Assembly (NCBI GenBank): GCA_903888765.1
Contig: CAISVF010000322.1
Span: forward strand, 1-62,507
Source of the DNA: an uncultured Verrucomicrobia subdivision 3 bacterium
GTDB lineage: Bacteria; Verrucomicrobiota; Verrucomicrobiia; Limisphaerales; UBA11358
Direction of reading: 5' to 3'
DNA length: 62,507 nucleotides
Program-made: the position numbers and the translations under genes
Shown: positions 2,110-15,220 of the stretch, piece after piece
How positions within the stretch are numbered: position 1 is the stretch's first letter
Layout of the letters: every line of letters starts with the position of its first letter
Notes under the pieces: model-generated
Database searches by the model: none
Told to the model about the DNA's origin: nothing
Seen by the model: the letters and a program-made list of their open reading frames with translations, nothing else

Positions 2110-3126
2110 TCAGTTGGGTATTTCTAATTTGGCCCAGGACGCCGGCAGATTTTTTCTGACTTCAATTCCCTTGAACGCCTGCCCCTGCCGCGCACCCGTT
2201 TTTTTGGCCCAGACAGCCATTTGGTTTACCCCGGTCTCCAACGAAACATTTTTAATCAGGTCGCCGAAAACTTTATGGGCTTTTTCGTGGGCGGAGTAGG
2301 CGTGAACCACTTCATTACGGGCCTCCAGATGGTTGATCTGCGGCGGCACTCCCATCGCCTTCGCGACCACCTTGGCCAACTCGGCTACCGAATAGGGCTG
2401 GTCTGCCCCCACGTTGAATACCTGGTTGTAACTGGCTGGCCGTTCAATGCTGGCGGCGATGACTGGAGCCACATCGTCAATGTAACTAAAGGCCCGAGTT
2501 TGCGTGCCGTCGCCAAAAATCGTCATCGGCTGCCCCTGCATGATCTGGTTCATGAAAATCCCAATGACATTCCGGTAACGATCTCCCAGATTCTGGTTGG
2601 CGCCATAAACGTTATGCGGACGGAAAATGACATGATTTAGCCCGAATATCTCGTGGGCTTCTTTGAGATCAAGCTCTACGGCGTATTTGGCAATGCCGTA
2701 GGGGTCTTCGGGTTGCGGGACGGTGTCTTCGGTCATCGGAAGCTGATTGCGGCCATACACGGCAATCGACGAAGTGAAGACAAAGCATTTAACCGTGCCG
2801 GTATTGACAGCGGCGTTGATCAGGTTGACGCTGCCTAGGAGATTATTCGTGTAATTAAACCGTTTGATGAAATGGCTCAGGCCTTCCGCCGCATAGGCGG
2901 CCAGATGAAAAACATATTCAAAGCGGTGCTCGGCAAAAAGTCGATTGACCAGGTCAACATCGTTGATGGAACCCCGGACAAACTCTACGCCCGCCGGTAC
3001 ATGATCCTCAAAACCTCCGCTTAGATCATCCAAAGCGACAACCCGCATTCCTCGCTTCAACAAATGCGAGGCCACATGCGAGCCAATGAAACCCGCAGCA
3101 CCAGTTACCAAAACTCGTGAATTCAT
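2110..3126 (-). CDS. NAD-dependent epimerase/dehydratase (UDP-glucose 4-epimerase-like)
   Basis: Encodes 338 residues of the extended short-chain dehydrogenase fold. The N-terminal GAAGFIGSH dinucleotide-binding motif is at about residues 8-16, and VALDDLSGG is at the end of beta-2. The catalytic Tyr-Lys pair appears in PYGIAKYAVE near residue 147, preceded by a TSS serine segment. NVYGANQ and a C-terminal FNVGADQPYSV segment are typical of NDP-sugar 4-epimerases and 4,6-dehydratases. The TSSIAVYG segment favours an epimerase. It heads an operon with the downstream methyltransferase and fits the polysaccharide context. GalE proper or a UDP-GlcNAc epimerase cannot be separated by eye. Confidence 0.85.
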   Translation of the reverse strand: MNSRVLVTGAAGFIGSHVASHLLKRGMRVVALDDLSGGFEDHVPAGVEFVRGSINDVDLVNRLFAEHRFEYVFHLAAYAAEGLSHFIKRFNYTNNLLGSVNLINAAVNTGTVKCFVFTSSIAVYGRNQLPMTEDTVPQPEDPYGIAKYAVELDLKEAHEIFGLNHVIFRPHNVYGANQNLGDRYRNVIGIFMNQIMQGQPMTIFGDGTQTRAFSYIDDVAPVIAASIERPASYNQVFNVGADQPYSVAELAKVVAKAMGVPPQINHLEARNEVVHAYSAHEKAHKVFGDLIKNVSLETGVNQMAVWAKKTGARQGQAFKGIEVRKNLPASWAKLEIPN

Positions 3127-3245
3127 AGAGCAATTCTAGCGGGGTTCGAGCCGCCATGTCGAGATTTGAAAAGATTCAGCAACGGTCTGCGTGCCCCTCT
3201 GGCTCAGGGTGCGCTGCCTGATAAAATATTCGTCTAAATGAAGCT

Positions 3246-3320
3246 TGGTAGCGCGCACGGGAATCGAACCCGTCTTTCAGCCTTGAGAGGGCCGTGTCCT
3301 AACCGATAGACGAGCACGCC
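3246..3320 (-). tRNA. tRNA-Glu (anticodon CTC)
   Basis: A complete cloverleaf reads on the minus strand from G1 at 3320 to an encoded CCA at 3248-3246. The acceptor stem GGCGTGC pairs with GCGCGCT using two G-U pairs. The D-arm is GTC...GGTTAGGAC, the anticodon loop is CTCTCAA (anticodon CTC) and the T-arm is CGGG-TTCGATT-CCCG. This is a normal, non-permuted tRNA and is a useful contrast to the tRNA-like elements near 11 kb. Confidence 0.95.
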
Positions 3321-3429
3321 ACGAATGGAAATCCTATCTGGCGCAGCCACGATGTCAATGCGCAGGTGGTCAATGAGCAAACAAAATAATTTTTTATGAT
3401 CCTTTAGATTACTTGGTGAACCTTGGTCT

Positions 3430-4480
3430 GTGAACTCCGGCCCACGTTCATACGCCACCGCATCTTCCTCGGGTTCGCCGTCGCCTTGGCAGCCACCTTC
3501 ACCCGCTGCGGTCTGCGCGTCGTCATCAGCCTCTTACGCACCTTGGGCTTGCGCCAGGCCAACTATGATCGGCTGCTGGACTTTTTCCACAGCTGGTCCT
3601 GAACCAAGCTGCGCACACACGGCTCTGGATCGCACTCATGTTTAAATCTCTGCTACCTTTCCTGCTGATTGTCAAAAGACATATCGCCCTATTGGCCGAT
3701 GGCATCAAAGCTGCCAAAACAGGAAAAGAGATGCTCGGCGTCAAAAAGCTGTATCGGGAGTCCCAGAACAACTCCAAGTCCGAATTCATCTTCGGCCATT
3801 CCGGTCAGGCTATCGCCGTCGTTGTCAAGGTGGCTGACGCCTATTTATTGTTGGCCGGATTTATTCTGCCTTTGCTCCAATCCGACCACCAGCTTGTCAC
3901 CTCTCCCAAATCCAACACCGTTGCCTATGCGGCCCCGGAAAAAACCAATGCCGACGCAGGAGCCGACCAAGGTGCTACGGTCCCAAAGTGAAGCTCAAAC
4001 ACTTGTTCGAGGATGAAAGTCGGTTTGTGTCCACCGCCAGCCCCATATATGGCGAGCGCAACGTCACGCTCCGCTACCAAGTGCGGGATCTTTTGCGGAA
4101 ATCGTTTGGCCTTCGGGTTCGATTCATCCTCGTCATCCATCCGCTGCGGGGCGTAAAATACTGCTTTGCACCGATCTGGCTTTCTCGGCGCTCCAGATTA
4201 TTTAACTCTACGGTGTGCGCTTCAAAATTGAAGTGGCCTTCAAGCAAGCCGTCCACACCATTGGAACCTATAGGTATCAACTCTGGATGCAAGCCGCGAA
4301 ACCACGGCCTTGCCGTTCCGGCGACCAGTATCTGCACAGGGAGTCCCACCTGTATCGGGATCAGCTCCGCCGCAAACTCGCCGCCTATCATTGTCACATG
4401 CAACTGGGCATCATCGCCCAAGGCCAGCTCCAGTGCCTGCCCAGCCTTGACTTTAACCGACCAGTCAGCGCGCTCTGCCG
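3430..4480 (+). pseudogene. Decayed DDE-type transposase
   Basis: Transposase-like peptide segments appear in order but in different frames. FIRHRIFLGFAVALAATF starts near 3448 and ends in a stop near 3600. It is followed by LADGIKAAKTGKEMLGVKKL with FGHSGQAIAVVV at 3690-3830. RNVTLRYQVRDLLRKSFG lies at 4058-4115, and YGVRFKIEVAFKQAVHTIGTY then RRKLAAYHCHMQLG lie at 4210-4410. The LADGIK and RFKIEV...K...HT segments are what I recognise of a DDE transposase with a C-terminal catalytic Glu. At least three frame changes, an in-frame stop and a missing central part show it is dead. The IS family is not certain, and terminal inverted repeats were not found. Confidence 0.7.
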
Positions 4481-4489
4481 AGCGCACAT

Positions 4490-4519
4490 AAAAAAACCCG
4501 CCGGCACTGGCCAGCGGGT
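4490..4519 (-). terminator. Intrinsic terminator of rplM-rpsI
   Basis: On the minus strand a 10-bp stem, ACCCGCTGGC with GCCGGCGGGT (one T-G pair), closes a CAGT tetraloop. It is followed directly by seven T residues (4496-4490). It begins 20 bases after the rpsI stop, the expected place for the end of the ribosomal protein operon. Confidence 0.9.
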
Positions 4520-4538
4520 GGTAAAACTTGGGCGAGAA

Positions 4539-4940
4539 TCAACGCTTCGAGAACTGGAAGCGTTTTCGCGCGCCGGGTTGGCCGTACTTTTTCCGTTCGC
4601 GTTCGCGCGGGTCGCGGGTAAGAAAGCCTTCCGCTTTCAGCGCCGGACGCAGGGTGGCGTCAAACTTAAGCAACGCCCGGGCGATGCCATGGCGCGTGGC
4701 TCCGGCTTGACCCACCGGCCCGCCGCCGACCACATTGACTCGCACATCCAGCTTATCGGCCGTGCCGGTGAGGCTGAGCGGCTGGGATACGGTGGCGCGC
4801 TGGGTATCCAGCGGAAAATAAACTTCAAAGGCGCGGCCATTGACGGTGATCTTGCCACTGCCGGTTGCCAGCCGGACGCGGGCGATAGACGTCTTGCGAC
4901 GGCCAGTGCCAAGGAATTCGTTGGTGATTGTGGTAGCCAT
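4539..4940 (-). CDS. rpsI: 30S ribosomal protein S9
   Basis: The 133-residue product starts [22 protein letters not shown] and ends in the basic tail [20 protein letters not shown]. This is the signature of uS9, whose C-terminal arm reaches the P-site tRNA. The [20 protein letters not shown] segment is the conserved core. I chose the ATG at 4940, 8 bases after the rplM stop, over an in-frame TTG at 4952 that would overlap that stop. It is the second gene of the universal rplM-rpsI pair and is followed by a strong terminator. The length is normal for the family. Confidence 0.98.
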
Positions 4941-4948
4941 ACGATAAA

Positions 4949-5383
4949 TCAATTAGCGGCTTTGAGCACAGCCGGCGTCTGGGCCTGATGATCGTGCTTC
5001 GGGCCTTTGAATACTTTCAATTTGGTGAGCAAAACGCGCCCGAGCCGGTTTTTGGGAATCATGCCTTTTACGGCGCGTTCAATGATCAGTTCCGGGTGCT
5101 TGGCACGCAGATCCTGAACGGTGGCATATTTTTCGCCACCTTTCCAGCCGGAATAGGTCATATATTCCTTATCGGTCTCTTTTTTGCCGGTGACACGTAC
5201 TTTCTCCGCGTTGACAACGATGACAAAATCACCGGCGTCGAGGTGAGACGTATAGACAGGCTTGTTTTTCCCGCGCAAAATATCAGCCACCTGCACGGCC
5301 AACCGGCCAAGCACGGCGCCATCGGCATCAATGACATGCCACTTGCGCTGGTCCAAATTCACTTTCGGCAAATGCGTTTTCAT
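4949..5383 (-). CDS. rplM: 50S ribosomal protein L13
   Basis: Encodes 144 residues matching uL13: [22 protein letters not shown] at the N-terminus, the [12 protein letters not shown] segment, and the family pattern [32 protein letters not shown] near residues 105-135. The protein binds 23S rRNA early in assembly of the large subunit. It is the first gene of the rplM-rpsI pair, with a good promoter-like sequence 26 bases upstream. Length, start and gene order are all standard. Confidence 0.98.
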
Positions 5384-9501: not shown

Positions 9502-11013
9502 TCACGCCGCCCCTTTCAAACTGTCGTCCGAATCCTTGATCACAAACCGGGCGCGCAGGCGCGCCACTTCGCTGGCCAGGCCGGCGAGCCGCACAGACTT
9601 CAACACTTCGTTGAAATCCTTGTAAGCCGCCGGCGCTTCATCCTTCGGATACGTGCGGCAGTTCGTCAAAATGTCGTGTACCACAAATTCATCGTCCACC
9701 GTCTTCTGATCCAAATCCCGAATCGCCGCCTTGCGCCCCTTCGCGCGGCCCGCACCATGGTTAACGCTGTAACAGCTTTTGTCCGCGCCCGGGTCAGCAA
9801 CCATCACGCAGGAACCCGCCGTCGGATTGCCGGGCAACAGAATCGGATGACCGGTCTCGTAAAACGGCGTGTTTTTGAGCGCGAAGTGATTCGCCGGGAA
9901 GGCACGGGTGGCACCCTTGCGATGCACCCAGGCTTCCTGATTGTTCACGATTTCGCGGCGGGCAATGTTGTGGCTGATGCAATACACGAGCTGGCCGCGC
10001 GTGCCGGGAATGATTTCCTGGAACGCTTCGAGCACGAGCTGGTTGATGAGCAGGTGGTTCACGGTCGCGAAGTTCGCGCCGAGCGACATGTCGTCAATAT
10101 AATCATCCGCCTCCTGCGTGCCGAGCGGCGCGTAAACCAACTCGCGGTCGTTGCCCGGCAACGGAATGTTCCAGGTCGCAAATTTGTTCTGCAACGCCTG
10201 GAACTGACCTTGGGCCAACGCGTAACCAAAGCCGCGCGAACCGCAGTGTGATAAAAATGCCACACACCCATCGCGCAAACCGAAGACCTCAGCCGCGCGC
10301 CGAGCGCGGTCGTTATCGGCAATCTGCACGGCTTCGCATTCACCAAAATGATTGCCACCGCCATAAGAACCAAGCTGGCGAATTTTGTCCTCAAACTTCG
10401 GGAATTTGCCGGTGCGGATGAGCAAGTCGAGCCGCGCGGCAAGATCGTCGCGCTGATTGCTGTGGCCGACGTGGAACGCGTCTTCGCAATGCGCCGCCCA
10501 CTCCGGCGGAATGCCAAGGTCTTGGCAGACGGCCACAGAGGCTCCTTCAATCGCCACACGGCGGCCGACCTCGCCATTCACGTTGCGACCTTTCTTTACA
10601 TTGCGCTGACCTTTGCCGGCTCCGGTCGGAGTACGTTCGACGATGGCGTTGATGAGTGCGCGGCGAACAGTTTTGTCCGCCACCGCGTCCGCCGGCACAT
10701 CAAGCTGGAGCAAGCTCATGGAGCATTTGATGTCCACGCCGACGGGGCCGGGATAAATGTGTGTCGGCGAAACGAGCACGCAGCCGACGGGTGCGCCGTA
10801 GCCGCAATGCGCGTCAGGATTGAGCACGAGGTCGGTAACGCCCGGCGCACCGCGCGAATTGAGGGCCTGCTCGATGCACTTCGCATCAAACGTCTCGCGG
10901 ATGGCGGCGGTGCCGATCACCGTGATCGGCTTGCCCTGATGGCCCGGCGCGGGAATGAAGCCGGTGGCTTCGCCCGTGGGCTGGATCACCGGCACTGCGG
11001 TTTCTGTGTTCAT
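9502..11013 (-). CDS. rtcB: RNA-splicing ligase RtcB
   Basis: The 503-residue product is an RtcB ligase, which joins 2',3'-cyclic phosphate or 3'-phosphate ends to 5'-OH RNA ends using GTP and Mn2+. Metal and nucleotide-site motifs are in order: DAHCGYGAPVG (residues 67-77), GVDIKCSM (Cys97 at the Mn position), GGGNHFGECE, LSHCGSRG, HNIARRE, HRKGATRAFP and NHGAGRAKGR, where the last His is the expected guanylylation site. I chose the ATG at 11013, 24 bases after the last Y-RNA-like element; an upstream frame extension to 11076 reads through that RNA and is rejected. It is the distal gene of the Ro60 operon. No archease or RtcA is present in the window. Confidence 0.97.
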   Translation of the reverse strand: MNTETAVPVIQPTGEATGFIPAPGHQGKPITVIGTAAIRETFDAKCIEQALNSRGAPGVTDLVLNPDAHCGYGAPVGCVLVSPTHIYPGPVGVDIKCSMSLLQLDVPADAVADKTVRRALINAIVERTPTGAGKGQRNVKKGRNVNGEVGRRVAIEGASVAVCQDLGIPPEWAAHCEDAFHVGHSNQRDDLAARLDLLIRTGKFPKFEDKIRQLGSYGGGNHFGECEAVQIADNDRARRAAEVFGLRDGCVAFLSHCGSRGFGYALAQGQFQALQNKFATWNIPLPGNDRELVYAPLGTQEADDYIDDMSLGANFATVNHLLINQLVLEAFQEIIPGTRGQLVYCISHNIARREIVNNQEAWVHRKGATRAFPANHFALKNTPFYETGHPILLPGNPTAGSCVMVADPGADKSCYSVNHGAGRAKGRKAAIRDLDQKTVDDEFVVHDILTNCRTYPKDEAPAAYKDFNEVLKSVRLAGLASEVARLRARFVIKDSDDSLKGAA

Positions 11014-11037
11014 AGTTTTATTCTTTTGTCCAAGTGA

Positions 11038-11152
11038 CGGCGCGACAAGTTTTTGCCGAAACAATCGCTCTACCACTGAGCTACGGCCCCGACTGATGGA
11101 GCCGGCGAGATTCGAACTCGCGACAGATGTAGTTCCAACGGCATTCGCACCG
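11038..11152 (-). ncRNA. Y-RNA-like element 6 (permuted tRNA mimic)
   Basis: Read on the minus strand. The terminal stem CGGTGCGA/TCGCGCCG (8 bp) is followed by the conserved AATGCC opposite TTG. Helix II GTTGGAAC/GTTTCGGC (8 bp with G-U pairs) and TACAT come next. The tRNA body follows in permuted order: T-arm GCGAG-TTCGAAT-CTCGC, acceptor 3' strand CGGCTCC, connecting loop ATCAGTC, acceptor 5' strand GGGGCCG, TA, then D-arm GCTC-AGTGGTA-GAGC. The acceptor strands pair over 7 bp within the unit. No tRNA 3' half lies downstream, since rtcB starts 24 bases later, so this cannot be an ordinary tRNA. It resembles YrlA-type bacterial Y RNAs, known tRNA mimics without a free CCA end. Confidence 0.85.
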
Positions 11153-11183
11153 AAATCATTTAACTGCGTTAACCAACTAAATA

Positions 11184-11315
11184 CGCGACGACAAAAATTG
11201 GAGAAACATTTTCCGCTGCTCTACCAACTGAGCTACCCCAACCTTCTTGCGGTCGGAGGCTGGATTCGAACCAGCGACCATCGGCTTCATGTAGTTTGCT
11301 CCGGCATTCGTCGCG
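11184..11315 (-). ncRNA. Y-RNA-like element 5 (permuted tRNA mimic)
   Basis: The terminal stem CGCGACGA/TCGTCGCG is 8 perfect base pairs. Conserved AATGCC faces TTG, and helix II is GGAG-C-AAAC/GTTTCTCC. The tRNA body is permuted: T-arm GCTGG-TTCGAAT-CCAGC, acceptor 3' strand CTCCGACC, loop GCAAGAA, acceptor 5' strand GGTTGGGG (8 bp with two G-U), TA, then a canonical D-arm GCTC-AGTTGGTA-GAGC including the GG of the D-loop. The anticodon-stem equivalent can form CCG/CGG plus GAA/TTC with an asymmetric bulge, recalling the kink reported for YrlA. It is the best preserved copy. Confidence 0.88.
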
Positions 11316-11321
11316 AAAAAC

Positions 11322-11454
11322 TGTGACGACAAAATTTGATGAAACTGATAACGCGCTCTACCCCTGAGCTACGACCCCATGTGTTGGAGTCGGCAGGACT
11401 CGAACCCGCGACCTCGTCCTTATGAGGGATGTAGTTCCATCGGCATTCGTCACA
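11322..11454 (-). ncRNA. Y-RNA-like element 4 (permuted tRNA mimic)
   Basis: The terminal stem TGTGACGA/TCGTCACA is 8 perfect base pairs. Conserved AATGCC faces TTG, and helix II is GATGGAAC/GTTTCATC (8 bp, one G-U). The sequence between TACAT and the T-arm contains CTCATAAGGACGAGGTC, like the anticodon loop and variable region of a CAT-anticodon tRNA. T-arm GCGGG-TTCGAGT-CCTGC, acceptor 3' strand CGACTCC, loop AACACAT, acceptor 5' strand GGGGTCG (7 bp), TA and D-arm GCTC-AGGGGTA-GAGC follow. The order is that of a tRNA cut open in the anticodon arm with its old ends joined. Confidence 0.88.
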
Positions 11455-11469
11455 AATTCTGACTGCAAT

Positions 11470-11570
11470 ATGGCGACAAGGATTGATGAGAATTCTCAAC
11501 CGGCCTTGCAGCGGGTCGGGCGGAATTCGAATCCGCTGGTTGCCAATGTAATCTCCCCTGCATTCGCCAT
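11470..11570 (-). ncRNA. Y-RNA-like element 3 (degenerate tRNA body)
   Basis: The terminal stem ATGGCGA/TCGCCAT is 7 perfect base pairs. The conserved AATGC and TTG strands and TACAT are present. Helix II is weaker (GAGA-TT with AATTCTC). The T-arm GCGGA-TTCGAAT-TCCGC is canonical. An acceptor-like stem CCGACC/GGCCGG with one A-C mismatch closes the loop CGCTGCAA. The D-arm is reduced to a small GAG-AATT-CTC hairpin, so tRNA mimicry is partial. At 101 nt it is shorter than elements 2, 4 and 5. Confidence 0.75.
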
Positions 11571-11581
11571 AAAATTTCAAA

Positions 11582-11714
11582 GAAGCAGCGCGACAATCGG
11601 GTGCAAGACAGTATTGAGCTATTCCGCTTGCGCGGAACCGGGAAACGAACCCGGACGCTCTGGCGTTGGGCCAGTTGCTCTACCATGTAGTCCTGCGGGC
11701 ATTCCCGCCGCTCC
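11582..11714 (-). ncRNA. Y-RNA-like element 2 (tRNA permuted in the D-loop)
   Basis: The terminal stem GGAGCGGCG pairs with CGCTGCTTC-side bases with one mismatch. AATGCC faces TTG, and helix II is GCAGGAC/GTCTTGC (7 bp). The tRNA parts occur in a different order from the other copies: GGTA and D-stem 3' strand GAGC (11680-11677), an anticodon-arm-like hairpin CTGGC-CCAAC-GCCAG, T-arm CCGGG-TTCGTTT-CCCGG, acceptor TTCCGC, GCAA tetraloop, acceptor GCGGAA, TA, and D-stem 5' strand GCTC (11619-11616). GAGC and GCTC can pair, so the circle is opened in the D-loop. The T-loop has T instead of the usual A at position 58. Confidence 0.78.
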
Positions 11715-11745
11715 AAATTTCTGAAAAATCAATTCCGCTTTCAGA

Positions 11746-11811
11746 GCGGGCCGACAAGTTGTTGCCGAGACAGAACAGGTTAAATGTAGTCTCAAGCGGC
11801 ATTCGGCCCGC
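11746..11811 (-). ncRNA. Y-RNA-like element 1 (minimal, no tRNA body)
   Basis: A 66-nt element with a perfect 9-bp terminal stem GCGGGCCGA/TCGGCCCGC, the conserved AATGCC and TTG strands, and helix II GCTTGAGAC/GTCTCGGC with one bulged T. TACAT is retained but is followed only by a short loop; there is no T-arm, D-arm or acceptor stem. It therefore looks like the Ro-binding module alone. A small inverted repeat (CTGAAA...TTTCAG, 11744-11721) follows and may be a processing or stability signal. Confidence 0.78.
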
Positions 11812-11831
11812 AAAAAATGGTTTCCACCCCG

Positions 11832-11863
11832 GCCCGGCCACGTCCGGATTGACGTGACCGGGC
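11832..11863 (-). other. 13-bp hairpin after the Ro60 stop codon
   Basis: GCCCGGTCACGTC pairs with GACGTGGCCGGGC over 13 bp (one T-G pair) around the loop AATCCG. It begins 11 bases after the Ro60 stop and ends 20 bases before Y element 1. There is no directly following T-run, although six T residues occur at 11817-11812. It may protect the Ro60 mRNA 3' end, act as a partial terminator, or serve as a processing site separating mRNA from the RNA array. Confidence 0.6.
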
Positions 11864-11874
11864 TATTCCTTGGC

Positions 11875-13428
11875 TCACAATGCGAGCGACTCAATCGTTC
11901 CCACCCAGTGATCGGCACCCAACCGGCCTTCAGCGAAGGCGGCGATGACTTGAAACACCTGGTCGGAAAAACCGCCAATGTTCAAGATATCCTCGCGTTC
12001 CAACGCCTGCACCGTCGCGTAAGGCTGGATATCAATACACACCAACCGCGCCTGCGGATTGAACCGTTTAAACACCGACCATTGGCGCATCGTCTCAGTG
12101 CCGCGGCCACCCTTGGCATCCACCCACGACTGGTTGTCGGAGACGAACACCACCAAGTCGCCCTTGGCCTGCTTTTGGTTCAGCCACGCAAGCGGCGCAC
12201 TGCAGTTCGTGCCACCGCCGCCCACGGCGGCGAGCTTCTGGGCGTTGGTCATCACACTATCGCGGCTGTTCAACGACACGTTCACGACGTTATTCTCGAA
12301 GGGCACCACTTCGGCCTGCGGATTCTGGCGCAAGATGGACGCCGCCACCAAGGCCGCCACATCCACACATCGCACCGACGTGGTCGCGCCGGCTCGCTGG
12401 CCCGTCACGGCCGAACCCATCGAACCCGACACATCCGGGCAGACATACACCTTGCCCGCGATGCGCGGAATGTTCTCCGTCGCGACTTCCATCGCGTCCT
12501 GGAGCGCGTCCCGAATCAAGTTCGGCACATCGCCACCGGCCGCTTTGAACGCCATCAACAACTGATACGGAAACACGCGAGCGCGTTTCACCGCGTCGGC
12601 ACTCGCCAGGCGGTTGGCGATCAATTTCACCATGACCTCGTTGTCGAACACGCCGTGCCGAGCAAACGTGTTCAAGTTCATGCGCGTCATCTGCCACGGA
12701 GCTTTCTTCGCGATCGCCGTCCACTCGGCTTTGCCGAGATCCAAGGCGGTCAACATCTGGAAAGCCACGTCCGGCACTTCATCCCGCTGGCCGCCCTTGA
12801 AGGCTTCGAACTGCTTCACGATTCCGGGCAGCGCCGCGGCATTATGTTTCCGACCAAGCAAATAACCGTAGAACGCGTCCCGGGTCGCATTGCCGGGTTT
12901 CGGGTGAACCATCTTGACGAGGTCCGCCAAAGACGGAGCATTGCCCACCGACACTCGGAACAACTGTTCATCCGTGCGGGATTCGAGCCAGCGCTGGACC
13001 AATTTCTTTGGCACCGTGCCGAGTGATTTGCGGCCCACCACACCGGAACGCAACACCTGGACGAAATTGCGGAGCATCTTGCCGTCATCGATCACCCGGT
13101 CGAACACGGTGCGGAGCAATGGCGGATCTTTCACCGACAACGCCGCGCACAATAAGGCCGGCATATCCTTCATGAAACCCTTCTCACGGGCATACACGGC
13201 GGTCTTGGCGACGAACTGCGCGTCCACTTCCTTCGTCAAGGTGAGCACCTTTTGGAGCTGGTCCTCGGCGGAGGCATAATAGGTCGAGTTCAAACAGCCG
13301 GTCGCCGCGTATTGGGCGAGCGCCTGCTTCGGCGCGAGCGTGTAAGCCCGGCCACCCGCTTCGTTGATGGCATCGGTCTGCGGCAAGAGCGCCCCGCGCA
13401 AGGATTGGAATAATGATTGGTTAGCCAT
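11875..13428 (-). CDS. rsr: Ro60/Rsr ortholog (TROVE and vWA domains)
   Basis: The 517-residue product has an N-terminal alpha-helical TROVE region (about 15-345), the ring that binds Y RNAs outside and RNA 3' ends inside. It has a C-terminal von Willebrand A domain with an intact metal site: DVSGSMGS near residue 351, the Thr of GGGGTNCSAP, and the Asp of VFVSDNQSW. Length is near that of other bacterial Ro60 proteins. It is the first gene after a sigma54 promoter, and is followed by the Y-RNA-like array and rtcB. In Salmonella a comparable rsr-yrlBA-rtcBA arrangement is known under RtcR control; here rtcA is missing. The start at 13428 lies about 25 bases after the predicted transcription start. 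Confidence 0.95.
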   Translation of the reverse strand: MANQSLFQSLRGALLPQTDAINEAGGRAYTLAPKQALAQYAATGCLNSTYYASAEDQLQKVLTLTKEVDAQFVAKTAVYAREKGFMKDMPALLCAALSVKDPPLLRTVFDRVIDDGKMLRNFVQVLRSGVVGRKSLGTVPKKLVQRWLESRTDEQLFRVSVGNAPSLADLVKMVHPKPGNATRDAFYGYLLGRKHNAAALPGIVKQFEAFKGGQRDEVPDVAFQMLTALDLGKAEWTAIAKKAPWQMTRMNLNTFARHGVFDNEVMVKLIANRLASADAVKRARVFPYQLLMAFKAAGGDVPNLIRDALQDAMEVATENIPRIAGKVYVCPDVSGSMGSAVTGQRAGATTSVRCVDVAALVAASILRQNPQAEVVPFENNVVNVSLNSRDSVMTNAQKLAAVGGGGTNCSAPLAWLNQKQAKGDLVVFVSDNQSWVDAKGGRGTETMRQWSVFKRFNPQARLVCIDIQPYATVQALEREDILNIGGFSDQVFQVIAAFAEGRLGADHWVGTIESLAL

Positions 13429-13462
13429 AGATTTTCTTTCGTTTAGTTTCTGCCAATTCTTA

Positions 13463-13480
13463 AAGCAGCCACCGTGCCAA
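13463..13480 (-). promoter_or_regulatory. Sigma54 promoter of the Ro60/Y-RNA/rtcB operon
   Basis: On the minus strand TTGGCACGGTGGCTGCTT matches the -24/-12 consensus (TGGCAC and TGC). GG is at 13478-13477 and GC at 13466-13465, exactly 12 bases apart. The predicted start is near 13453, leaving a leader of about 25 bases before the Ro60 ATG. The divergent gene encodes the matching enhancer-binding protein RtcR, which supports the call. Confidence 0.88.
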
Positions 13481-13579
13481 CTATAAAAAACGTGGCAATC
13501 CCCACATAAACCTCAATAAATACAGGCAAAAATAATAGTTCAGCTGTGTCAGGCGATTTGGTTTGCCGGATAACCGTAC

Positions 13580-13611
13580 TAGCGGATATGCTAAATAGCA
13601 GGAATTTTAGC
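13580..13611 (+). promoter_or_regulatory. Candidate RtcR binding dyads
   Basis: Two small inverted repeats overlap just before rtcR: TAGC-GGATAT-GCTA (13580-13593) and GCTAAA...TTTAGC (13590-13595 with 13606-13611). CGGATA is also repeated directly at 13567 and 13583. They lie 100 to 150 bases upstream of the sigma54 promoter, a usual distance for an enhancer, and would also cover the rtcR start for autoregulation. No binding data are available. Confidence 0.35.
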
Positions 13612-13612
13612 T

Positions 13613-15220
13613 ATGACAGCCAGGAAACAGGTGGTGATCGGTCTGCTCGGCAGTGTGCTGGATTACGGCTTTCACCAGGAACGCTGGCATAAGTGGCGCC
13701 CGAGCGTTTCTTTGTGCAAACACGCGGACCTGCCGATTGACCGGTTTGAACTCATTTACGATCCCAAGTTCAAAGACATGGCCAACGTGGTCATGGCGGA
13801 TATTTCCACCGTCTCGCCGGGAACCGAAGTCCGCGGCACCACCCAACCATTGCGTGATCCTTGGGATTTCGAGGAAGTGTATGCCGCGCTGCATGACTTT
13901 GTGCGTGGCTACGAATTCAAGCCGGACACAGAAGATTACCTCGTCCACATCACCACTGGTTCGCATGTGCAGCAGATTTGCCTATTCCTGCTGACCGAGT
14001 CGCGTCATTTTCCGGCGCGCCTGTTGCAAAGCTCGCCGGCGGATGCCAAACGGCGCGGACCTGAAGGGAAGTTCGCCATCATCGATCTCGACCTCTCCAA
14101 ATATGACCGGCTGGCCTCACGATTCGGCAAGGAGCTAAAGGAGGCGCGGACGTTCCTCAAGTCGGGCATTGCCACGCGTAACGAACATTTCAATCAGCTT
14201 ATCGAGCAGATTGAGCATGTCTCAATCAATGCGAAAGATCCTGTCTTGCTGACCGGACCTACGGGCGCGGGAAAGTCGCAGCTCGCCCGGCGCATCTACG
14301 AACTGAAAAAATCACGGCACCAGATCGCGGGAGCATTTGTGGAGGTGAACTGCGCCACGCTGCGCGGCGACTCGGCCATGTCGGCACTCTTCGGCCACGT
14401 CAAAGGGGCGTTCACTGGGGCGGTAAAAGATCGGCCCGGCCTGTTGCGTGCCGCTGACGGGGGCTTGCTTTTCCTGGACGAAATCGGCGAGCTGGGACTG
14501 GACGAACAGGCGATGCTTCTCCGGGCGCTGGAAGAAAAACGCTTTTTGCCTTTCGGTGGCGACTGCGAGGTCACCAGCAATTTTCAATTGATTGCCGGCA
14601 CGAATCGCGATCTGCAACGCGCCGTCCAGGAAGGCCGCTTTCGCGAAGACCTGCTGGCCCGGACCAACCTCTGGACATTTCATCTGCCGGGCTTGCGCCA
14701 ACGTCCGGAGGACATCGAACCCAATCTGGATTACGAGCTGGAACAATTCGCGCGCAAGAGCAGCCAGCGCGTCACCATGAGCAAGGAGGTGCGCGAAGCT
14801 TTTTTGAAATTTGCCCGATCACCGGCGGCAAAATGGACCGCGAATTTTCGTGACTTGAACGCGTGTATTACCCGCATGGCCACGCTGGCACCCGGCGGTC
14901 GCATTACCGCACCCGTCTTGGATGGTGAAATGCAACGCTTGAAGACCGCCTGGACCACGCCGATGGCAAACGATGACCACGGCACCGTGCTTTCTGAAGT
15001 TCTCAGTGACGCAGCGAAAGATCAACTCGACCTATTCGATCAGGCGCAACTGGCTTTCGTCATTCGCGTGTGCCACGAATCCACGACTCTTTCCGACGCC
15101 GGTCGCAAACTCTTCGCCGCCACCCGGGAAAATCGAAAAACCGCCAACGATGCCGATAGGCTTCGCAAATACCTCGCCCGTTTTGACCTCGGTTGGCAGG
15201 ATATAAAATTAAAAAACTAG
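13613..15220 (+). CDS. rtcR: Sigma54-dependent activator RtcR
   Basis: The 535-residue product starts with the RtcR regulatory domain, a CARF-type Rossmann fold (VVIGLLGSVLDYG at the N-terminus; DYLVHITTGSHVQQICLFLL near residue 107) thought to sense an RNA-derived ligand and hold the protein inactive. A sigma54-interacting AAA+ domain follows: Walker A TGPTGAGKS near residue 215, the GAFTGA loop near 265 that contacts sigma54, LFLDEIGEL Walker B near 288, and arginine-finger segment GRFREDLLAR. The C-terminal part should hold the DNA-binding helix-turn-helix. It is divergent from the Ro60 operon with 184 bases between. AGGA lies 9 bases before the ATG. Length matches E. coli RtcR closely. 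Confidence 0.95.
   Translation: MTARKQVVIGLLGSVLDYGFHQERWHKWRPSVSLCKHADLPIDRFELIYDPKFKDMANVVMADISTVSPGTEVRGTTQPLRDPWDFEEVYAALHDFVRGYEFKPDTEDYLVHITTGSHVQQICLFLLTESRHFPARLLQSSPADAKRRGPEGKFAIIDLDLSKYDRLASRFGKELKEARTFLKSGIATRNEHFNQLIEQIEHVSINAKDPVLLTGPTGAGKSQLARRIYELKKSRHQIAGAFVEVNCATLRGDSAMSALFGHVKGAFTGAVKDRPGLLRAADGGLLFLDEIGELGLDEQAMLLRALEEKRFLPFGGDCEVTSNFQLIAGTNRDLQRAVQEGRFREDLLARTNLWTFHLPGLRQRPEDIEPNLDYELEQFARKSSQRVTMSKEVREAFLKFARSPAAKWTANFRDLNACITRMATLAPGGRITAPVLDGEMQRLKTAWTTPMANDDHGTVLSEVLSDAAKDQLDLFDQAQLAFVIRVCHESTTLSDAGRKLFAATRENRKTANDADRLRKYLARFDLGWQDIKLKN

Follow-up and report, generated by a model that had tools for sequence, protein, structure and literature searches.

A Ro60-linked array of six predicted YrlA-like Y RNA genes with diverse permuted tRNA modules in a probable RNA repair operon of Verrucomicrobia

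Bacterial Y RNAs of the YrlA type are encoded beside the gene of the RNA-binding protein Ro60 (Rsr), as in the rsr-yrlBA-rtcBA operon of Salmonella. Canonical YrlA (PDB 6CU1) has been described, in work with ARTEMIS, as a circularly permuted tRNA (PMC11472068). PMC8394870 reports that DusA and TruB modify YrlA and that this RNA connects Rsr with PNPase, and a complex of Ro60, Y RNA and PNPase (RYPER in Deinococcus) is documented (PMC8394870, PMC4726728). The regulator RtcR is described as binding 5' tRNA fragments that carry a cyclic phosphate, and the same source proposes YrlA as a competitive nuclease inhibitor; in Salmonella no fragments of YrlA were detected, so nucleases do not use it as a substrate in that species (PMC7790460). 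Known features of this family include the circular permutation, the link to Ro60 and control by RtcR.

We analyzed a window of 62,507 nucleotides, contig CAISVF010000322.1 of an uncultured Verrucomicrobia subdivision 3 bacterium. On its minus strand lie Ro60 with TROVE and vWA domains (11875..13428; PF25045, E=1.1e-20; PF05731, E=2.4e-8), directly downstream an array of six predicted RNA units, and then the RNA ligase RtcB, whose checked reading frame starts with ATG at 11013 (9502..11013; PF01139, E=1.5e-97). RtcR is divergent from these genes on the plus strand (13613..15220) and combines the sensor domain PF06956 (E=2.1e-80) with the sigma54-activating AAA+ domain PF00158 (E=5.3e-49). At least 8000 scored candidates are Ro60 homologs at E≤1e-20. 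The arrangement agrees with Salmonella in the Ro60 neighbor, the divergent RtcR and the downstream RtcB, and differs in having six diversified units instead of two and in the lack of RtcA, a member of the RNA repair operon in published descriptions. RtcA (PF01137) was not found in the one genome searched, that of the window, whose assembly is 92.9% complete; the E. coli control was positive.

A sigma54-type promoter-like site, TGGCACG-N4-CTGCT (13464..13479, minus strand), lies roughly 35 bases ahead of where Ro60 starts and has two mismatches to TGGCACG-N4-TTGCA; it is the top match on both strands of 13429-13612. The stretch 10950-13650 yielded no sigma70-like site. Because of this pair of results, together with the divergent RtcR and the RtcB of an RtcR-type repair operon, RtcR likely drives the Ro60, array and RtcB genes as one predicted operon. 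A weak counterpoint to a single transcript is a terminator-like hairpin just past the first unit (11735-11749), a kind of site no commoner than chance (three such sites, 3.4 expected), which leaves room for processing or attenuation. The gap that separates the Ro60 stop from the first unit holds an inverted repeat rich in G+C (11832-11863), which is present in L031-L033 as well and is a possible site of processing or attenuation. Between array and RtcB the window has 24 bases, and L031 has there a 201-amino-acid open frame (4518-5123) with no Pfam match.

The six units, named U1 to U6 in the direction of transcription, are YrlA-like Y RNA genes by prediction. The original prediction of six structured minus-strand elements of 66-133 nt, related to Ro60-linked YrlA RNAs in an RtcR operon, holds up, the protein side through the Pfam matches above and the RNA side through covariance models. 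Model R1 was built from 28 units, U4 and U5 of the window among them. It recovered all six window units, each at E≤4.5e-6 over 839 kb, four of which had no part in its training, and also matched units in relatives; its alignment runs end to end (model positions 1-129) with every window unit, over the terminal stem and the conserved internal loop. Across the whole genome R1 gave no seventh copy among the 150 first-look candidates, out of 1198, that it scored. The curated Rfam model for YrlA (RF02553) has a cut-off of 69 bits, and U6 alone exceeds it (80.5), with U4 short by 0.2 (68.8), U5 by 1.9 (67.1), U3 at 38.5 and no match for U1 or U2. One unit in six above the cut-off suggests that the curated model misses much of the family.

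All six units share a foot composed of a terminal stem, mostly ending in CGA/UCG, an internal loop with AAUGC opposite UUG, helix II and, after helix II in six of six, the sequence UACAU. This foot is the predicted Ro60 handle of all six. What it carries differs from unit to unit. U1 (11746-11811; R1 42.4 bits; alignment A3) is short and has no tRNA part, and in this it resembles the plain Y RNA of Deinococcus. U5 (11184-11315; R1 110.9 bits) and U6 (11038-11152; R1 103.1 bits; short linker) have the canonical YrlA form, in which T-arm, acceptor hairpin and D-arm make up the permuted head already known from YrlA. U3 (11470-11570; R1 52.4 bits) retains, in the four sequences of alignment A5, the T-arm, an elongated acceptor hairpin and, following TACAT, a GG like that of a D-loop; as far as four sequences allow, it is apparently a reduced form of elbow plus acceptor. 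The heads of U2, U3 and U4 have layouts that are absent from the Rfam YrlA model.

In U2 (11584-11712; R1 34.1 bits) the Y stem enters a complete, circularly permuted tRNA cloverleaf through the D-loop. It sits inside this loop with the halves of the D-stem on either side; the rest of the cloverleaf consists of the D-stem, the T-arm, an acceptor with GCAA as its closing loop, and a stem where the anticodon stem would be. We collected 13 U2-like units, with Verrucomicrobia, Planctomycetes and Acidobacteria among their sources. In every one of the 13 the stem at the anticodon position forms at least five pairs, counting G-U. Its loop varies from 3 to 14 nt, is GAAA in three of the 13, and where it has 7 nt (once, in L032) lacks U33. 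Since this loop is degenerate across U2-like units, U2 would be a mimic of tRNA shape with no anticodon. The idea that every head serves as anticodon bait was rejected for U2 on the same ground.

U4 (11322-11454; R1 118.3 bits) is a permuted tRNA in which the Y stem enters between tRNA positions 28 and 29, within the anticodon stem, and leaves an anticodon-like loop CTCATAA (CAU). tRNA-like D, T and acceptor arms are present in U4, U5 and U6, in another permutation in U2 and in part in U3, and are lacking in U1. The original prediction had pointed to the diversity of the units, and diverse they are; the tRNA-like modules in five of the six were overlooked there. A simple classification by pattern, which is rough, divided 284 units of the wider family into 116 junction-type, 52 D-loop, 104 short and 12 other heads.

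Covariation in the alignments bears out the original argument that the RNA structures are selected. Doubly changed paired cells number 142 in alignment A6 (28 units; 96.6% of cells paired), where shuffling gives 36.8. In alignment A8 (the 13 U2-like units) 89.3% of cells are paired and 70 are doubly changed, with a shuffled value of 22.1. Pairing of A6 fell to 40-51% in slid controls, a comparison that favors the drawn structures over their slid versions as those of A6 (from U4) and A8 were drawn from window units. That the units are no genes at all, only chance repeats or the remains of an old tRNA cluster, might be entertained because tRNA-like sequence is easily copied; this strong covariation, conservation across phyla and a yield of two matches when a simple motif scan was run on 292 kb of shuffled sequence make it scarcely credible.

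Among the 116 junction-type units, the linker from TACA to the T-stem is most often 20 nt (38 units), then 15 nt (16 units). Linkers of 20 nt can be read as tRNA positions 29-48, and we parsed 36 such units of the U4 kind from 34 sources, leaving out two of the 38 rows (L068 4515 and L076 6702). Selection relied on the TACA motif, the length of the linker and the T- and D-arms and made no use of the positions tallied here; the units come from Verrucomicrobia, Acidobacteria, Planctomycetes, Rhodothermales and Undibacterium. Their anticodon stem is paired at 31-39 in 34, 30-40 in 35, 29-41 in 22, 28-42 in 34 and 27-43 in 34 of 36 units; taken together 159 of 180 cells of the stem 27-31/39-43 are paired, both halves lie above all 5000 shuffles, and the stem covaries. 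A pyrimidine stands at position 32 and a G at position 46 in 36/36, U33 is found in 34/36 and a purine at 37 in 31/36; the 7-nt length of the loop is a consequence of the position numbering. Positions 34-36 use all four bases, and A34 occurs in 17 of 36 units versus one of the 31 tRNA sequences recovered from the window genome. In the RF02553 alignment the U4 anticodon hairpin is placed as an insertion, as this model has no such arm.

Similar arms appear on predicted viral contigs, which lie outside the model: a hairpin with a 7-nt loop and at least 3 bp is found in 12 of 17 long linkers (mean 5.5 and maximum 10 in 200 shuffles), with U33 in eight and a purine at 37 in 11 of the 12. Under this looser rule the excess in the bacterial set is less clear (36 of 66; shuffled mean 21.8, maximum 33), the rule wrongly omitting true U4-like linkers that start with TGGC or TGGT. 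As a single sequence U4 prefers another fold, the proposed cloverleaf having -38.7 and the minimum -50.3 kcal/mol in a calculation that leaves tertiary contacts aside; nor was the proposed cloverleaf the minimum-energy fold of the two relatives tried. A conserved anticodon identity was discarded for U4, because the window has CAU and ARAGORN reads AAA in three orthologs. G3:U70 is the identity element of alanine tRNA. It is present in U4 and U6 of the window and in 21 of 108 parsed units overall, and we dropped it as a conserved feature. Nor do the heads appear to derive from a single host tRNA, as no one close parent was found among the 31 tRNA sequences.

These features raise the possibility that the anticodon-bearing units are mainly sacrificial or competitive targets of anticodon nucleases, which would spare the tRNAs while RtcB reseals the cut ones. 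Such a reading would fit several observations: U33, the purine at 37 and 7-nt loop spacing are retained although the triplet differs from lineage to lineage, the predicted viral contigs have similar arms, the operon regulator senses cut tRNAs, and PMC7790460 proposes a competitive-inhibitor role for YrlA. We nevertheless consider it doubtful, since such a loop occurs in only one of the six window units, the loops of the U2 kind are degenerate, and YrlA is not cut in Salmonella as far as that report goes.

The acceptor end of these RNAs bears on whether they are tRNAs. All seven base pairs of the acceptor stem form in 86 of the 108 parsed units. The loop that closes the stem is at most 12 nt in 91 and most often 6-8 nt (55); CCA is present in eight, and the loop starts with NNCA in 25 (the CCA cases included), where about seven are expected at equal base odds. 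Because their acceptor ends are closed, the units would be tRNA mimics and not tRNAs. In seven of the 108, L083:6856-7051 among them, the acceptor loop is 39-96 nt long, so additional sequence can be borne at the acceptor end. The order of T-arm, acceptor 3' strand, loop and acceptor 5' strand is shared with permuted tmRNA (RF04321) and permuted tRNA genes; RF04321, with a cut-off of 47, gave weak sub-threshold matches to U6 (26.5 bits) and U4 (23.5 bits). Unlike those genes, the units have mostly a short closed acceptor loop, usually lack CCA, and carry the Y stem where the tag or the intron sits.

Could the tRNA-like parts be tRNA genes, permuted or spare, whose transcripts become usable tRNAs? 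ARAGORN called a tRNA in eight of eight cases when U2, U4 and three orthologs of each were de-permuted and given ends, a test run without a shuffled control; one of the eight had no clear identity and the U4 module of the window was called Met CAT. The frequency of the NNCA loop start also points this way. Set against this, neither ARAGORN nor Rfam found a tRNA in the native array of the window, ARAGORN made no call for de-permuted U5 and U6, and the short loops, the rarity of CCA and the frequent A34 are hard to reconcile with usable tRNAs. We therefore hold this to be highly improbable. Partial R1 matches in Acidobacteria that resembled free-standing permuted modules turned out, where inspected, to be junctions between neighboring tRNA genes.

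The original prediction took the presence of six copies to be possibly new. We counted units in 84 sources, which are the best 80 of 415 confirmed Ro60 loci, the window and L113-L115 (L112 was left out as the same as L032). These are model counts from 284 of 315 R1 matches, once 16 partial and the 15 lowest matches had been set aside; among the 284, two run into a contig end and a few overlap tRNA genes, and L113-L115 and some other contigs are short. At least one unit is present in 80 sources, at least three in 64 and at least six in seven, so multiplicity as such does not set the window apart. Six to eight units are found in L031, L032, L069, L107, L054 and L068, plus the window with its six. 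L107, from Undibacterium, has seven by the model count, the first four of them short (58-65 nt).

The locus is patchily distributed. A Ro60-like match occurs in 17 of 146 related genomes, five of these full-length at ≥59% identity, and a strong unit match under stricter filters in 13 of 288 genomes of the same phylum, the window's own genome being included in both counts. Where the array is kept, its units keep their identity: in L031 and L032 (six units each), L033 (five) and L046 (four), 21 of 21 units have their counterpart of the same class in the window, with the order preserved and 78-93% identity, whereas the closest pair within the window is 69% identical. Because orthologs are closer than any paralogs in the window, each unit is an old and separate lineage. 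This weighs against the view that the six units act alike, all linking Ro60 to PNPase as in RYPER, with copy number only raising the amount. Such a dosage role could draw on the documented Ro60, Y RNA and PNPase complex (PMC8394870, PMC4726728, so far as these describe it) and on the foot common to all units, but units with distinct heads and a conserved order are neither recent nor homogenized copies, and we judge it distinctly unlikely. Deinococcus Y RNA resembles the window array in the expected tether between Ro60 and an effector, and differs in that the window units bear permuted whole-tRNA heads.

By tblastn with the window proteins (E≤1e-10, which distant forms may escape), RtcR is present in 47 of the 80 named loci, RtcB in 44 and either in 51; the 33 stretches with no RtcR match, some on truncated contigs, count against the adaptor reading set out below. 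In 18 of the 80 (L035, L036, L039, L040, L042, L045, L047, L051, L054, L064, L065, L068, L072, L076, L077, L079, L097 and L106), ARAGORN made 7-33 tRNA calls per fetched stretch (a threshold chosen after the counts were known), of which all but one lie on the strand of Ro60. All 18 belong to Acidobacteria groups; a few calls lie within Y units (for example L045 6869-6938), and those of L045 span all 20 amino acids. RtcR or RtcB was found in none of the 18, while RtcR was found in 47 of the 62 others (Fisher p=3e-9). Ro60/Y RNA loci seem to come in two versions, one of repair and one of spare tRNAs. Within its tRNA array L045 has an HNH endonuclease gene (2958-3542), and an HNH gene often adjoins large tRNA clusters in mycobacteria according to PMC9569102. 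Ro60 relatives also occur on 62 predicted viral contigs (L134-L195), nine of them longer than 300 kb, and 34 of the 62 have an R1 match (E≤0.001, partial matches included).

We favor, on balance, a reading in which the array provides interchangeable Ro60 adaptors with tRNA-shaped heads, made upon tRNA damage and beside RtcB. Cut tRNAs would switch on RtcR and so the predicted Y RNAs; the shared foot would hold Ro60 in all six, and the heads would draw tRNA-handling proteins to Ro60 next to the ligase. With its closed acceptor hairpin, a head could bind tRNA-recognizing enzymes and escape charging, and the anticodon loop of U4 might be a bait for anticodon nucleases. This panel of adaptors is suggested because the literature cited above describes the RtcR ligand, the link of YrlA to PNPase and the permutation of YrlA. 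The sequence itself shows homology, structure, covariation, conserved unit identity and operon layout, while co-transcription, processing, Ro60 binding, a division of labor between the heads and the bait role of U4 are inferences. Against the adaptor reading stand the other fold that U4 prefers as a single sequence, its unconserved triplet with A34 common, the pair 29-41 that forms in only 22 of 36 units of its kind, the U2-like loops that do not resemble an anticodon loop, the missing RtcA and the uncut YrlA of Salmonella (PMC7790460).

Beyond the permutation described with ARTEMIS, the window units let the Y stem enter at two further places, the D-loop and the interior of the anticodon stem. 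The literature searched, with the primary bacterial Y RNA papers outside its scope, gave no description of Y RNAs that are entered through the D-loop or bear an anticodon. Any novelty would lie in the anatomy, in diverse permuted tRNA modules within one array, and not in multiplicity. More speculatively, and in our opinion improbably, RNAs of the U4 type could be whole permuted tRNAs with a mostly sealed acceptor and a Ro60 handle in the anticodon stem, their changeable loop a bait for anticodon nucleases that RtcB reseals, with Ro60, bait and ligase joined in a single machine for tRNA protection. If true, this machine would be shared by bacteria and very large phages. With a conserved panel of heads built in different ways, one of which has an intact anticodon loop, the question of why repair operons carry Ro60 and tRNA-like Y RNAs becomes testable, and direct tests can ask what protein each head binds and if anticodon nucleases accept the bait.
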